DNA of 55,134 nt from the NCBI GenBank assembly GCA_900316955.1, contig ONEX01000022.1, forward strand, positions 1 through 55,134. Direction: 5' to 3'. Shown here piece after piece: positions 17,179-51,861 of the stretch. This DNA comes from an uncultured Bacteroidales bacterium (lineage in GTDB: Bacteria; Bacteroidota; Bacteroidia; Bacteroidales; UBA932). Position 1 is the first letter of the stretch. Each line of letters begins with the position of its first letter. The translations under genes and the position numbers were made by a program. Below the pieces are notes generated by a model, which was given only the letters and a program-made list of their open reading frames with translations, did no database searches and had not been told where the DNA came from.

Positions 17179-17484
17179 CTATCTGTTCTTGAGGATGGTG
17201 GAGACGGTGTCCAGCAGGCGGACGGTCAGGGCGTAGTGGTCGGAGAGGACATCGTAGATGCCGTCCTCGGAGAGTACGCCGCGCTTGAGGTCCTTGGGAA
17301 GCTTCCCGGCGTCGTCGGCCTCGAAATCGTCGCGCCACTCGTCGCTCTCATAGTAGGCCGACAGTTCTTTCACGTCCTCCTGGATGCCGTCGAAGGCGTC
17401 CAGCGCCTCCTCCAGGTTCTCCAGGACGGGGGCGATCCGGTCCAGCAGCGACTCGTAATGCCGGATCCTTTCAATCTGTTCCAT
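17179..17484 (-). CDS. DUF4298-type small helical protein
   Basis: 101 acidic, helical residues with no signal peptide. The pattern MEQIERIRHYESLLDRI, then SAYYESDEWRDDFEADDAGKLP and GVLSEDGIYDVLSDHY matches what I know of the DUF4298 family, whose function is not established. It overlaps the end of the methyltransferase gene by 14 nt and is followed 3 nt later by the CPBP gene, so the three are probably one transcript. Confidence 0.8.
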   Translation of the reverse strand: MEQIERIRHYESLLDRIAPVLENLEEALDAFDGIQEDVKELSAYYESDEWRDDFEADDAGKLPKDLKRGVLSEDGIYDVLSDHYALTVRLLDTVSTILKNR

Positions 17485-18832
17485 ATCGTTTCTTGGTTAC
17501 AATCAAATAGTTGCCCGCCTCCGCGGCCGCCTCGACCCGGACGCCGAACAGGTGGATGTCCCCGCCTGAGGCGCAGCCGAGCTTCTTCCGCAGCAGGTCG
17601 GAGGTCATGGGCACGTTCCGGGCCGTCACCTCGGCCTGCGGCCACCGTTTCCCGGCCTCCTTTATCGTCCGGTTGTTCAAGGGCAGCACCTCCTGGATTT
17701 CGAACACCTTCCCGAACGGCCGCAGCTCCTCCGGAACCGCCTCGCCCGCATACAGATGCGTATGCTGCCCCAGCTTGGTCAATCCGAACCGCCCGCAGGG
17801 CAGCCCGAACGCCCCGGCCTTGAGCAGGGCCTTCCCGGGCTCGAAGAGCGAGATTTCTCCACTCCGCTTCGCTCCAGTCGAAATGACAAGGGGGGAACCC
17901 TCATTCCGGGCTTGACCCTCACCCTCATTCCGGGCTTGACCCGGAATCTCCATCACGGCGCCGCCTTCGACAATGAAGGTCGCAGGGGCCCCTTCCCATT
18001 CGCGGTCCAGGAGGAACAGGAGTTCCTTGCACTCCCCTCCTGCGGCCACGACGTGCACTTCCTTCACGTGCGCTCCCAGCCGCTTGCAAGCCATCGTGAT
18101 GTCCGCCATCGGCGAGAGTTTCAGCAGCACGTACCGGGCCGCCTCGAACAGTTCCGGCAGCAATCCCAGCACATCCGGCTGGCACTCCTCGATGAGGAAC
18201 ACCTTCCGGCCGTCTTCGGCCCTTCTTACCGGATCCAGGAAGATGACATCGGGCCGGAACCCGTCCAGCACCTCCTTCACCTTTCCGGGCTCCACCCGGC
18301 AGTTCCGGAACCGCACATTCTCCACCCCCAACTCCCTGAAATTCAACTCCGTCGCCCTAACCAATTCAAGCTGCATCTCATTATACAGCACCTCCTTGGA
18401 AACCTGCGCAAACGCCCACGCATCCACCCCCATTCCCCCTGTCAGATCTGCCACATTCAGGCTGGAGGGTGTACCACCGCAAACCTGTGGCCACCCTCGG
18501 CCACATAAGAGGGAGGGGCCCATCTTTGATGGGAGGGGTCGCGTAGCGACGGTTTGCGGTGGTACACCCTCCAGCCGTAAACCCGAAGCAAGCCATGCCT
18601 TATATCTGGCGGTTTCCGATGAACTGCACTGCTCTCCGGAGAGCCGGAAAGGGTAAACCAGCGACGGGACGGCGTACCACTCGGGGACTTTCGTGCGGAG
18701 CTTGCGCCGCACTTCCAAGGTCGTGACAGCCAGGTCGATGTCGATATCCGGATACTTGTCCCGCGACAGCAGGAGCCGGACCGGGTCGTCCGCCTCGTGT
18801 TGCAATATGAAATCGGCGAAGGGCATCTGCAT
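17471..18832 (-). CDS. THUMP-like class I SAM methyltransferase carrying two in-frame palindromic insertions
   Basis: 453 residues from ATG 18832 (MQMPFADFIL). The SAM motif I is VADLTGGMGVDAWAFA and the motif IV region is DVIFLDPVRRAEDG. The C-terminal domain (LLPLNNRTIKEAGKRWP type) resembles the THUMP-like domain of Bacteroidota RNA methyltransferase-like proteins such as the PG_1098 family; the substrate is unknown. Residues about 86-125 (DNA 18460-18576) are coded by a palindromic repeat and read LEGVPPQT...VCGGTPSS. Residues about 295-328 (DNA 17850-17950) are coded by other short repeats and read IPGQARNEGEGQARNEG...STGAKRSGEIS. Neither breaks the frame or removes a recognised motif, so the enzyme may still fold. 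First gene of an operon with DUF4298 and CPBP genes. Confidence 0.85.
   Translation of the reverse strand: MQMPFADFILQHEADDPVRLLLSRDKYPDIDIDLAVTTLEVRRKLRTKVPEWYAVPSLVYPFRLSGEQCSSSETARYKAWLASGLRLEGVPPQTVATRPLPSKMGPSLLCGRGWPQVCGGTPSSLNVADLTGGMGVDAWAFAQVSKEVLYNEMQLELVRATELNFRELGVENVRFRNCRVEPGKVKEVLDGFRPDVIFLDPVRRAEDGRKVFLIEECQPDVLGLLPELFEAARYVLLKLSPMADITMACKRLGAHVKEVHVVAAGGECKELLFLLDREWEGAPATFIVEGGAVMEIPGQARNEGEGQARNEGSPLVISTGAKRSGEISLFEPGKALLKAGAFGLPCGRFGLTKLGQHTHLYAGEAVPEELRPFGKVFEIQEVLPLNNRTIKEAGKRWPQAEVTARNVPMTSDLLRKKLGCASGGDIHLFGVRVEAAAEAGNYLIVTKKRYGTD
17850..17950. repeat. Mosaic of short palindromic repeats inside the methyltransferase gene
   Basis: Two units are joined. 17850-17887 is an imperfect palindrome (gagatttctccactccgctt...aaatgac on the plus strand). 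17901-17950 holds two tandem copies of tcattccgggcttgaccc, the second ending in the full palindrome ATTCCGGG-cttga-CCCGGAAT type. The same second unit occurs at 44101-44127 and, in variant form, at 49808-49834. About 33 codons of coding sequence are added with no stop. Confidence 0.85.
18460..18576 (-). repeat. 117-nt palindromic element, copy 1, in frame inside the methyltransferase gene
   Basis: The two ends are perfect inverted repeats: 18460-18485 pairs with 18551-18576 over 26 bp. Inside (read on the minus strand) lie three hairpins in order: GTCGC-tac-GCGAC, CCCATC-aaa-GATGGG, and TGTGGCC-gagggt-GGCCACA, joined by CCCTCC-rich linkers. 117 nt equals 39 codons, and no stop occurs in the coding frame. 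The core recurs at 50802-50869. Confidence 0.92.
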
Positions 18833-18862
18833 TGCAAAAATACACAATTATCCTTACATTTG
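18832..18862 (+). promoter_or_regulatory. Promoter of the phosphoglucomutase-GH89 operon, with a mirrored box for the opposite gene
   Basis: Plus strand: TTG (18832-18834), 20 nt, TACATTTG (18855-18862), then ATG at 18894. On the minus strand TATTTTTG (18835-18842) lies exactly 20 nt offset and would serve the methyltransferase gene, whose ATG follows after only 2 nt; its -33 position reads ATG rather than TTG. The two promoters would share the same 34 bp. Confidence 0.75.
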
Positions 18863-43572: not shown

Positions 43573-44102
43573 TCCACACCAGCGAAATCAAGACGGCGGC
43601 ACCGGCGGCCTTCGCCAACGAGACCCAGCGGAAGGTCTATGCCGCCCTGGAGCGGCTGGCCATTCCTTTTGCCCGCATCGACAACGACCCGGCCGTGACG
43701 ATGGAAGACTGCATCGCCATCGACGAGGCCTTGGGCGCGCCCACGGTGAAGACGCTGCTGCTGTGCAACCGGCAGCAGACGGTGTTCTACCTGTACGTGA
43801 TGCCAGGCGACAAACCGTTCAGCACCAAGGACTTCGGCGCCGCGCTGCAGATCTCGCGCGTGTCCTTCGCCCCCGCGGCCATGCTGCAGGAATTCCTGGG
43901 CACGGAGGTGGGCGCGACGACGCCCCTGAGCCTCGTCGCCGACCCGGAGAACCGGGTCCGGCTCATCATCGACCGGGCGGCCGTCACCCCGGAATCCATC
44001 GGCTGTCCCGACGGGACGACCACCTGCTACATGCGCCTGAAGACGGCGGACCTGCTCGGGAAATTCATCCCGGAGACGGGGCATGAGCCCACGTTCATTT
44101 GA
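43569..44102 (+). CDS. YbaK/ProX-type aminoacyl-tRNA deacylase
   Basis: 177 residues. The sequence VYAALERLAIPFARIDNDPAVTMEDC and the TVKTLLLCNRQQTVFYLYVMP core fit the prolyl-tRNA editing (ProX/YbaK) family, which hydrolyses mischarged Ala- or Cys-tRNA-Pro. The conserved Lys is in VKTLLL, and the C-terminal GCPDGTTTCYMRLKTADLL fits too. The stop codon (44100-44102) overlaps the start of a palindromic repeat, so the repeat may have set the present C-terminus. Confidence 0.88.
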   Translation: MIHTSEIKTAAPAAFANETQRKVYAALERLAIPFARIDNDPAVTMEDCIAIDEALGAPTVKTLLLCNRQQTVFYLYVMPGDKPFSTKDFGAALQISRVSFAPAAMLQEFLGTEVGATTPLSLVADPENRVRLIIDRAAVTPESIGCPDGTTTCYMRLKTADLLGKFIPETGHEPTFI

Positions 44103-44127
44103 GATTCCGGGTCAAGCCCGGAATGAC
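44101..44127. repeat. Short palindromic repeat at the end of the YbaK-type gene
   Basis: ATTCCGGG (44104-44111), loop TCAAG, CCCGGAAT (44117-44124). Same unit as in 17901-17950 and close to that at 49808-49834. Confidence 0.85.
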
Positions 44128-44154
44128 GGAAAAGGAAGGGTGTTTCAAAGATGG

Positions 44155-49472: not shown

Positions 49473-50767
49473 AAGTCGCCCTCACCACCCTCGGCTGCAA
49501 GCTGAACTACGCGGAAACGTCCACCTATGAGCGCGGATTCGTCGCCCACGGGCTGGAAGTGGTCCCCTGGAGCGCCGCGGCCGATGTCTATGTGATCAAC
49601 ACCTGCGCGGTGACGGAAACGGCCGAGAAAAAGTCCCGCAACCTCATGCGCCGGGCGCACAAGACGAACCCGGACGCCCTCGTCATCGTCACCGGCTGCT
49701 ACGCCGAGCTCAAGAAGGAGAAACTCTACGACATCGAAGGGGTCTCCCGTGTGTTCGCGGCCGCGGAAAAGCCGCAGCTGGTGAACGAGACGCTGGCGAT
49801 GCTGCAAGAGATTCCCGGTCAAGCCGGGAATGACGGTTCCCTGTCCGAGAAGGCACACGTCATGCCCGGCCCCGACCGGGCATCTGTCGAAACGCTCCCG
49901 GCGTATTCGTCCGGCGAGCGGACGCGCTCGTTCCTGAAGGTCCAGGACGGGTGCAACAACTTCTGCGCGTACTGCACCGTGCCGTTCGCCCGCGGCCGGA
50001 GCCGGAACATTCCCATCTGCGAGCTCGTGAAGCAGGCGGAGCAGATCGCCGCGAAGGGCATCCGCGAAGTGGTGCTGACGGGCGTGAACACGGGCGATTT
50101 CGGCCGCACGACGGGCGAATCCTTCCTGGACCTGCTGAAGGCGCTGGACGCGGTGGAAGGCATCGACCGCTACCGGATCTCGTCCATCGAACCGAACCTC
50201 ATCACGGAGGAGATCGTGGACTGGATCGCCTCCGGCACGAAGTTCCAGCGGCATTTCCACATCCCGCTCCAGTCCGGCAGCGACACGCTGCTGAAGAAGG
50301 TCGGCCGCCGGTACGACACGGCCCTGTTCGCCTCCCGCATCGACTATATCCGCCAGGCGATGGAACGCCCCGGGGAGCCGAAGGTTTTCTTCGGCATCGA
50401 CGTCATCGTGGGCCTTCCCGGCGAGACGGAAGACCTGTTCCTGGAGACCTACAACTTCCTCAAGGACCGGATCAAACCCGCCTTCCTGCACGTGTTCCCC
50501 TACTCCAAGCGCCCCGGCACCCGCGCCGCGGCGATGCCCGACCAGGTCCAGGACAGCGTGAAAACGGACCGCGTCGCGCGGCTCGAAGCCCTCTCGGACG
50601 ACCTCCACGCCGCCTTCGTCGCGGCCAACAAAGGCCTCCCCGAGCGCGTCCTCTGGGAATCCAGCGTCAAGGGTGGCATGATGTTCGGCTACACCGGCAA
50701 CTACATCCGCGTCGAAAAACCCTATGACCCCGCACTGGTGAATACTTTGGAAAGCATTGTTATTTAA
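49469..50767 (+). CDS. mtaB: tRNA t6A37 methylthiotransferase MtaB with an in-frame repeat insertion
   Basis: 432 residues. Radical-SAM enzyme that makes ms2t6A37. The N-terminal MTTase domain has Cys10 (LGCKLNY), INTCAVTE and TGCYAE. The radical-SAM cluster motif is CNNFCAYC, followed by VVLTGVNTGDFG, and the C-terminal TRAM-like region is present. Residues about 114-139 (EIPGQAGNDG...PGPDRAS; DNA 49808-49886) are coded by two palindromic repeats placed in the linker just before GERTRSFLKVQDGC, without loss of a motif. Last gene of tamB-rsmI-mtaB; a second copy of the large palindromic element follows 8 nt after its stop. Confidence 0.95.
   Translation: MKVALTTLGCKLNYAETSTYERGFVAHGLEVVPWSAAADVYVINTCAVTETAEKKSRNLMRRAHKTNPDALVIVTGCYAELKKEKLYDIEGVSRVFAAAEKPQLVNETLAMLQEIPGQAGNDGSLSEKAHVMPGPDRASVETLPAYSSGERTRSFLKVQDGCNNFCAYCTVPFARGRSRNIPICELVKQAEQIAAKGIREVVLTGVNTGDFGRTTGESFLDLLKALDAVEGIDRYRISSIEPNLITEEIVDWIASGTKFQRHFHIPLQSGSDTLLKKVGRRYDTALFASRIDYIRQAMERPGEPKVFFGIDVIVGLPGETEDLFLETYNFLKDRIKPAFLHVFPYSKRPGTRAAAMPDQVQDSVKTDRVARLEALSDDLHAAFVAANKGLPERVLWESSVKGGMMFGYTGNYIRVEKPYDPALVNTLESIVI
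49808..49886. repeat. Two short palindromic repeats inside mtaB
   Basis: Unit 1 (49808-49834): ATTCCCGG-tcaag-CCGGGAAT. Unit 2 (49859-49886): ATGCCCGG (49862-49869), loop ccccga, CCGGGCAT (49876-49883). Together with the linker they add about 26 codons in frame. Confidence 0.88.
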
Positions 50768-50775
50768 AGATATGA

Positions 50776-50895
50776 GGGTAGTCGGTAGTAGTCTGAAAAC
50801 CGTCGCTTCGCGACCCCTCCCACCGCAAGCGGCGGGCCCCTCCCTCTTATGTGGCCGAGGGTGGCCACAGGTTTTCAGACTACCACCGACTACCC
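50776..50895 (+). repeat. 120-nt palindromic element, copy 2, between mtaB and the MBL hydrolase gene
   Basis: Arms 50776-50801 and 50870-50895 pair over 25 of 26 positions. The core 50802-50869 matches copy 1 (18486-18550, minus strand) base for base on both flanks, apart from one base in the first hairpin loop. The middle hairpin differs: CCC-a-CCGC-aa-GCGG-c-GGG here. The arm sequences are unrelated to those of copy 1 apart from AACC/GGTT next to the core. Confidence 0.92.
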
Positions 50896-50907: not shown

Positions 50908-51861
50908 ATGAGTGAAGTAAAGCTCACATTCTTAGGAACAGGGACCTCCCAGGGGATTCCGATCATCGGGTGCCAGTGCGCGGTGTGCCGGTCGGAGGAT
51001 CCGCATGACAAGCGGTTCCGGGCGGCGGCGTTCGTCGAATACGAAGGGTTCCAGGTGCTCATCGACGCGGGGCCGGACTTCCGGATGCAGATGCTCGCGA
51101 AAGGGATCCGCCACTTGGACGCCATCCTCCTGACGCACAAGCACAAGGACCATACGGGCGGCCTGGACGATGTCCGGTCGTTCAATTATATCGACCGGAA
51201 GGCCGTGGAAATCTACTGCGAGCCCGAGGTGCTCAAGTCGCTCCGGAACGACTATTCCTATGCCTTCGCCGAGCACAAGTACCCCGGCTCCCCCGAATGG
51301 CATGTCCACATCATCGACGAGAAGCCATTCCGCATCACCTCCCTGGAGAACACCGGCGACCTGGAATGGGTCCATGACATCGGCTATTTCTACCGGCAGC
51401 CGGACGGGTCGCTCATTCCCTCGGACAACGCCGTCGTGCCCGCCTTGCCAGCCCTTCCCGGCCCGGACAGCGGTTTCGTCGGCGGGGTCAAATATTTGAA
51501 TGTCATTCCCATCCGGGGCTATCACGACCAGATGCCCGTGCTGGGATTCCGGTTCGGGAAGATCGCGTACATCACGGACATGAGTTCCCTGCCGGAGAGC
51601 GAACTGGCCAAGCTGCAGGGGCTGGAGCATGTCTCGCTGAACACGGTGGGGTACCATCCCCACCACTCGCATTTTTCGCTGGACCAGGCCCTGGCGCTGG
51701 CGGACCGCATCGGCGCGAAGCATACCTGGCTCACGCACCTGAGCCATGCTTTCCCCTCCTACGCCGCTTTCTGCGACGAGCTTCGCCGCCTCTGCGCCGA
51801 GCGGGGCATCCGCTCCGACGTCCAGCCCGCTTTCGACGGCCTGACAGTCACGGCTCGGTAG
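50908..51861 (+). CDS. MBL-fold metallo-hydrolase (PhnP/RNase Z-like)
   Basis: 317 residues from ATG 50908 (MSEVKLTFLGTGTSQG). The metal-binding motif is THKHKDHTGGLDD (residues about 76-88), with a Cys cluster IIGCQCAVC near the start, as in PhnP-like proteins, and later GYHDQMP and TDMSSLP. About 45 residues between FRITSLEN and NVIPIRGYHD (DNA about 51349-51497) appear to be extra compared with the Bacteroidota versions I remember. Substrate unknown (cyclic phosphodiester or lactone types are possible). The 3' end overlaps a small convergent gene by 14 nt. Confidence 0.87.
   Translation: MSEVKLTFLGTGTSQGIPIIGCQCAVCRSEDPHDKRFRAAAFVEYEGFQVLIDAGPDFRMQMLAKGIRHLDAILLTHKHKDHTGGLDDVRSFNYIDRKAVEIYCEPEVLKSLRNDYSYAFAEHKYPGSPEWHVHIIDEKPFRITSLENTGDLEWVHDIGYFYRQPDGSLIPSDNAVVPALPALPGPDSGFVGGVKYLNVIPIRGYHDQMPVLGFRFGKIAYITDMSSLPESELAKLQGLEHVSLNTVGYHPHHSHFSLDQALALADRIGAKHTWLTHLSHAFPSYAAFCDELRRLCAERGIRSDVQPAFDGLTVTAR

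Follow-up and report, generated by a model that had tools for sequence, protein, structure and literature searches.

A small folded mobile DNA family of uncultured gut Bacteroidales with a common core and arms that may usually be built from the target

The described kinds closest to the element reported here are REPs and the Rickettsia palindromic elements. To our knowledge, the movement of small bacterial palindromic repeats is mostly unknown; the Rickettsia families have a constant palindrome, and we know of no description of target-derived arms among them. Our element resembles them, as they are generally known, in being palindromic, dispersed and found in frame in protein-coding genes. REPs are, in the excerpted account of PMC3733652, small dispersed palindromes, intergenic as well as intragenic, tagged with GTAG or CGTC; the CGTC kind has been reported in Bacteroidetes without a known transposase, and some REP dimers lie within longer palindromes. 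The present element is likewise a short dispersed palindrome in many copies, but where REPs measure 20–40 bp and have a constant stem and tag (same excerpts, PMC3733652), its arms are 21–25 bp long and vary between copies, and its core is a multi-hairpin structure of 70–95 nt with a pseudoknot. A search for a constant stem or end tag of the GTAG/CGTC type gave no constant end motif outside the arms, and in the genome of origin (G000) the copies do not flank a Y1 gene in the REP/RAYT manner. Template switching is described, in the extract of PMC8794818, as making a hairpin with a perfect stem in one event, the neighbouring strand being copied backwards, and as producing compensated changes likewise. 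Finally, the coding palindromes of Nematomorpha mitochondria are inverted repeats in functional genes that keep the protein sense; unlike for our element, no dispersed core is mentioned in the extract of that account (PMC6649704).

The element is a small folded mobile DNA family of uncultured gut Bacteroidales, with a common core and arms that usually differ; it is REP-like and, for typical cores, about 110–125 bp long including the arms. Two copies lie in the window, by which we mean the whole stretch of DNA analysed (55,134 nucleotides): copy 1 at 50776–50895 (120 nt) and copy 2 at 18460–18576 (117 nt), both divisible by three in length as an earlier note on this DNA had remarked. The coordinates and pairing given there hold, with 25 of 26 positions paired (96%) between 50776–50801 and 50870–50895 in copy 1, and 26 of 26 between 18460–18485 and 18551–18576 in copy 2. 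Checking the letters shows that each 26 bp helix is made up of a 21 bp variable arm and a 5-bp core stem, AAACC/GGTTT, and each copy is a common core of 75–78 nt flanked by 21-nt self-complementary arms, which are unrelated between the two. Within the core, the copies share a block of 41 nt letter for letter (100%), in inverse orientation. The one-base difference in a core loop (GCTTCGC against GCTACGC) and the change of the middle hairpin with pairing kept in both copies were also correctly noted. The two copies had been placed in the direction of the neighbouring genes; in fact they occupy opposite strands of the window, and the structured strand is antisense to the neighbouring genes at both. 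On the evidence of mispairing and core variants, we take the strand reading AAACCTGTGGCC..GCGACGGTTT to be the structured one; it is the minus strand at 50776 and the plus strand at 18460.

Copy 1 sits between two plus-strand ORFs, one ending at 50767 and the next likely beginning with the ATG at 50908. Its 78-nt core (50797–50874, minus) includes the P1 strands AAACC (50797–50801) and GGTTT (50870–50874), which pair with each other, and holds, all on the minus strand, hairpin 1 (50802–50814; GTCGC TTC GCGAC on plus, of the GNA triloop family on the structured strand), hairpin 2, the variable middle hairpin (50819–50836), a pseudoknot strand (50842–50846; CCCTC on plus) and hairpin 3 (50851–50868; GTGGCC/GGCCAC), whose loop holds the other pseudoknot strand, 50857–50861. 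The outer arms are recognized by their pairing: 50776–50796 (plus), the 3′ arm of the structured strand, is the presumed host or target side by the rule found at trmB and L035 (see below), and 50875–50895 (plus) the presumed inverted copy. The empty ortholog of this site holds neither arm.

Copy 2 lies in frame within a minus-strand ORF of 458 aa (17471–18847), just before a stretch reading NVADLTGGMGVD; judged by eye, the product appears methyltransferase-like. Its 75-nt core (18481–18555, plus) is flanked by arms again recognized by pairing, the 5′ arm of the structured strand at 18460–18480 (plus), presumably the inverted copy, and the 3′ arm at 18556–18576 (plus), presumably the host side, the sides being assigned indirectly. 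The same ORF also encodes PGQARNEGEGQARNEG over a repeat, CCCTCATTCCGGGCTTGACCC (17898–17950), which is found again inverted at 44101–44129 of the window, as well as the stretch STGAKRSGEISL; several palindromic inserts seem to have been gathered by this one gene.

Along the structured strand the core runs AAACC-TGTGGCC-ACCCTC-GGCCACA-TAA-GAGGG-AGGGGCCC-hairpin-GGGAGGGG-TCGCGAAGCGA-C-GGTTT. Because a MAFFT alignment of the cores was poor at the 3′ end, we counted pairs by parsing the cores and compared them with 500 shuffles, using 63 distinct cores found by BLAST outside the arm-sharing loci of genome G016. P1 shows 92.1% standard pairs in these cores (best of the 500 shuffles, 79.4%) and the pseudoknot, formed by the loop of hairpin 3 with the strand that follows, 97.8% (best shuffle, 94.6%). 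In the covariation check proposed in the earlier note, here made by counting against shuffles, both pairings lie above all 500. The pseudoknot is CCCTC/GAGGG in 55 of the 63 cores, CCCGT/ACGGG in five and CCCAT/ATGGG in one, and two were parsed without the pairing. The core folds into hairpins and a pseudoknot, as its covariation supports. The loop of hairpin 1 is mostly a GNA triloop among the parsed copies (GAA 72, GCA 18, GGA 15, GTA 9). GCGNAGC is a very stable DNA mini-hairpin, and the triloop is a weak hint that the folded form might be single-stranded DNA. No Rfam family reached its gathering score over the element, and the matches there were weak and hairpin-like.

In the genome of origin (3.13 Mb, 98.5% complete), BLAST finds 11 matches, which resolve into 10 copies. 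Matches also occur in 18 of 24 sampled congeners, the genus being larger than the sample; 16 genomes from other genera gave none. At least 117 stretches in genome contigs match a degenerate pattern; among the matches listed, the titles are Bacteroidales or Bacteroidia save for one Candidatus Coprenecus, and many refer to the ruminant gut. Neither the pattern nor the 78-nt query matched viral contigs, phages or plasmids. Copies at the same site form 26 pairs across different genomes and persist between species at 74–92% flank identity; presence in one and absence from another of two close species is also seen, as are decayed copies. Open frames run through the element in 78 ORF readings, and in-frame copies are found in many different ORFs. 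A strong strand rule with respect to open frames was rejected: among 66 copies, 27 are open antisense, 22 sense, 8 both and 25 neither. In the variant found at the G016 loci L048–L064 the middle hairpin is longer; arms are shared by at least seven of its copies, and longer flanking repeats by several of the loci.

The most informative comparison for the arms is between copies whose cores are equally similar (core edit distance up to 4). Arm identity is 0.87 for same-site pairs in different species (n = 8) and 0.44 for same-genome pairs (n = 19, with the G016 arm-sharing loci and copies near contig ends, including L026, left out); 2000 random pairs give 0.41. Because same-site copies keep their arms and equally similar cores in the same genome mostly do not, the arms are usually replaced at insertion and not inherited with the core. 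One arm common to most copies, the outcome that the earlier note had named as contrary to its reading, did not occur, although in 22 of 192 copies an arm matches (at least 17 of 20) that of a copy with unrelated flank. These form one G016 set and the groups L228/L231/L291/L285, L211/L252/L295 and L026/L080; the 20-nt arms are identical in L228, L231 and L291 and match at 18 of 20 positions in L026 and L080. The rest of the 22 are three pairs that may be chance matches to the common motif.

How an arm arises can be read at base level in trmB, where the genome of origin carries the unfilled site (L317, G000:C19). The filled locus L273 is identical to it from CCATGATGG to TTGA, then continues with a 75-nt core and a 21-nt inverted copy of this stretch with two mismatches, after which the host sequence resumes at AAAAGATG. 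The insertion amounts to 96 nt, or 32 codons, and is in frame. A construct keeping the 3′ arm of the structured strand agrees at 22 of 22 positions (485 bits) against 13 of 22 (436 bits) for the opposite construct; at L289, the trmB site in another genome, the same two constructs give 21 and 12. The pre-insertion target itself thus forms one arm at trmB, and the second arm is a copy of it in inverted orientation. The target is not duplicated there; in this, and in having no constant terminal inverted repeats, the element differs from a MITE. The second copy at L035 is a second event of the same kind at 85% flank identity, scoring 15 against 8 of 22 versus the empty L171, on the same side as trmB. 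Also in support, phmmer places DREGIV, the peptide encoded by the same-side arm of L005, against DDEGM in 1x0m and 3aov.

The earlier note had proposed comparing an arm with the pre-insertion target in related genomes, and among eight empty orthologs at 85% identity or more the answer is divided: two show a clear native arm (trmB and the second copy of L035), L068 is partial, with the outer 7 nt of the same-side arm native, L003 gives no call, and four (L001, L007, L067 and the first copy of L035) hold neither arm. In all four, genes overlap at the junction that forms the empty site, and the filled site has 12–24 extra nt beside an arm; short ATG- or TAG-like repeats are seen flanking the insert at four gene junctions. 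The empty form looks ancestral at L007 and L001, because other congeners align contiguously across the junction (G001 and G002 for L007, G005 and G008 for L001). A simple target-copying model leaves these four sites unexplained. Either the spacer arose first, or whole hairpins were also inserted, the latter being proposed because the arm-sharing groups suggest it.

More distant comparisons do not decide which side is native: by summed scores of distant protein homologs, the predicted side leads in 12 of 22 copies and the other side in 8, with two ties, and DNA scores of distant homologs come to 11:8:1 for L087, 2:1 for L240 and 2:1 for KsgA in L306. A source for the arms elsewhere in the genome was rejected, as for nine G000 copies the searches returned only the copy's own arm pairs and matches at E 0.78 or worse, and a source in nearby sequence showed no excess over shuffles, save for a local duplication at L089. 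There, at about 939–1109, a partial element (arm and core start) directly precedes a full copy with the same arm. In 137 copies, if the 3′ side of the structured strand is taken to be the host, the arm has a median length of 23 (quartiles 21–25). Base fractions on this presumed host side are 0.67 and 0.63 for G at −14 and −13, 0.49 for T at −11 and 0.46 for A at −10; positions −5 and −4 carry pyrimidines, and position −3 has C at 0.63 and never A.

The arms pair beyond chance. At least 13 Watson–Crick pairs in the 18 positions outside the core are found in 139 of 177 copies (mean over the 177, 15.3), a set accepted only where an arm helix was found, the 192 copies used above coming from a looser extraction and being counted differently. 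Swapping 3′ arms among copies brings the mean down to 6.0, with 13 or more pairs in 0.5%. The same-site copies L002 and L019 differ by three compensated pair changes, two of them transversions. In the 139 of 177 copies, isolated mispairs on the structured strand are G.T in 54 cases, A.C in 9 and other in 21 (p 6e-9), and 45 of the 54 G.T mispairs have the G in the 5′ arm. The compensated changes and the mispair bias, with the covarying core, show that pairing is also kept after insertion. In 134 of 171 copies (37 with more than four mismatches being dropped), native A is read as G in 48 of 435 cases, G as A in 9 of 656, C as T in 9 of 579 and T as C in 4 of 608. Reading this as a signature of copying errors was rejected: drift that tolerates wobble pairs on the structured strand would produce an excess of the same sign, and L273 and L289 differ by one A/G-type change that seems to postdate the insertion, so we keep the A-to-G excess as an observation only. 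At L008 and L298, in a glycosyltransferase-like gene, the site is the same and the arms correspond but the core has the opposite orientation, which suggests that it was inverted between its arms.

The explanation we lean towards, by a modest degree, is that the core is the mobile part and that the arms are usually built at each new site from the target. In the complement of the structured strand, the AAACC end of the core would be joined to the 3′ end of a target X; the GGTTT end would then fold back on AAACC and prime snap-back synthesis, copying some 21–25 nt of X backwards. The product would be X, core and inverted X, after which the host strand would be rejoined. Insertions would survive at gene junctions and in frame within protein linkers, and the palindromic arms would later be inherited, drifting together through template-switch repair, selection for pairing of the structured strand, or both. 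We infer the joining chemistry, the snap-back priming, the resolution and single-stranded DNA as the folded form, and likewise that most copies arose as target plus inverted copy; a second mode, in which the hairpin moved together with its arms, probably also exists. The four sites with neither arm and the arm-sharing groups lower our confidence in target copying a little. The earlier note had left a choice between templated copying and selection for folding, which do not exclude each other: trmB, L035 and the turnover of arms speak for copying, and the four close sites with neither arm against it. A transposon class that carries a structured core only, and makes a private 21–25 bp palindrome from each target by snap-back synthesis, is a tentative proposal that we would put at somewhat under an even chance. 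Our searches, which covered open-licence papers, turned up no account of a mobile element that copies its target in inverted orientation. If the arms record insertion, the choice of target, the strand, the length of the copy and the errors made in copying all become readable from sequence alone, and the family would offer a natural test of template switching against two-step compensation as the maker and keeper of perfect stems. It also carries a caution, namely that perfect covariation of arms between copies need not imply a conserved RNA.

The earlier note had proposed looking for a linked Y1/RayT transposase or reverse transcriptase; in G000 neither was found linked to the element. The genome has four Y1 transposase genes, all away from the 10 copies, and among relatives the number of Y1 genes does not track that of copies (G014, 70% complete, has no gene and 11 matches; G006 six genes and no match). 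A Y1 transposase would suit a single-stranded DNA route, but the Y1 genes of G000 lie apart from the copies and Y1 number does not follow copy number. The reverse transcriptase profile RVT_1 (PF00078) had no match at E 0.001 in G000, which sets the element apart from retrons, group II introns and DGRs. In L149 (G000:C12), a Y1 gene is flanked on both sides, at 541–640 and about 1899–1983, by REP-like palindromes of its own (GGTGACGTCCCG..CGGGACGTCACC), which are unlike the element studied here.

The main alternative agent is template switching during replication with no dedicated transposase, by which the core would be copied from elsewhere, snap back and return, its fold favouring spread. Such switching creates and maintains perfect stems, according to the extract of PMC8794818, and no linked transposase was found for the element. 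Beyond the trmB junction the host sequence begins with AAAA and the core with AAACC, so a short shared sequence was available there. As in a template-switch hairpin, the new arm is an inverted copy of adjacent sequence at trmB and at the second copy of L035, unlike at the four sites with neither arm; the hairpins in that extract (PMC8794818) have no mobile conserved core at many sites. However, the narrow arm length, the positional target motif and the strong constraint on the core, pseudoknot included, suggest a specific recogniser, and we regard this agent as somewhat unlikely. A little less probable still is that the whole hairpin is mobile, arms included, with arms diverging fast under selection for pairing of the structured strand, such that unrelated arms are simply old. 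The 22 of 192 copies that share an arm despite unrelated flank, the four close empty sites with neither arm, and the compensated drift of same-site arms, with G.T far above A.C mispairs, all fit this account. Yet at equal core similarity arms are retained in same-site pairs and lost in most same-genome pairs, and the empty trmB site already has one of the arms, what was inserted there being the core and one arm only.

The element might instead be an immobile, conserved host RNA that acts in cis or as an antisense, which would account for the wobble bias on one strand, the covarying pseudoknot and the persistence of same-site copies across species at 74–92% flank identity. We consider it improbable, given the presence or absence between close species, the decayed copies, the in-frame copies across many different ORFs and the lack of an Rfam family. 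Insertion of the core into the loop of palindromes that already existed has a precedent of sorts in REP dimers found inside constant palindromes in two species (excerpted in PMC3733652); no such palindrome is seen in the empty sites of trmB, L001, L007, L067 and the first copy of L035, and we give this reading very little weight.

Several loci show further irregularities. In G003, L135 and L136 are remnants of copies at the L004 and L009 sites, the loss at L135 spanning from AGGGTG in the arm to AGGGTG in the hairpin-3 loop, and at L009 (1197–1372) two enlarged hairpins stand in place of part of the usual core. At L037, L201, L292, L361 and L371, peptides such as CHSERSEES or an GTCATTCCGGGCTTGACC repeat occur beside the element or in the same linker; judging from these repeats, permissive linkers may act as hot spots at which unrelated repeats insert.
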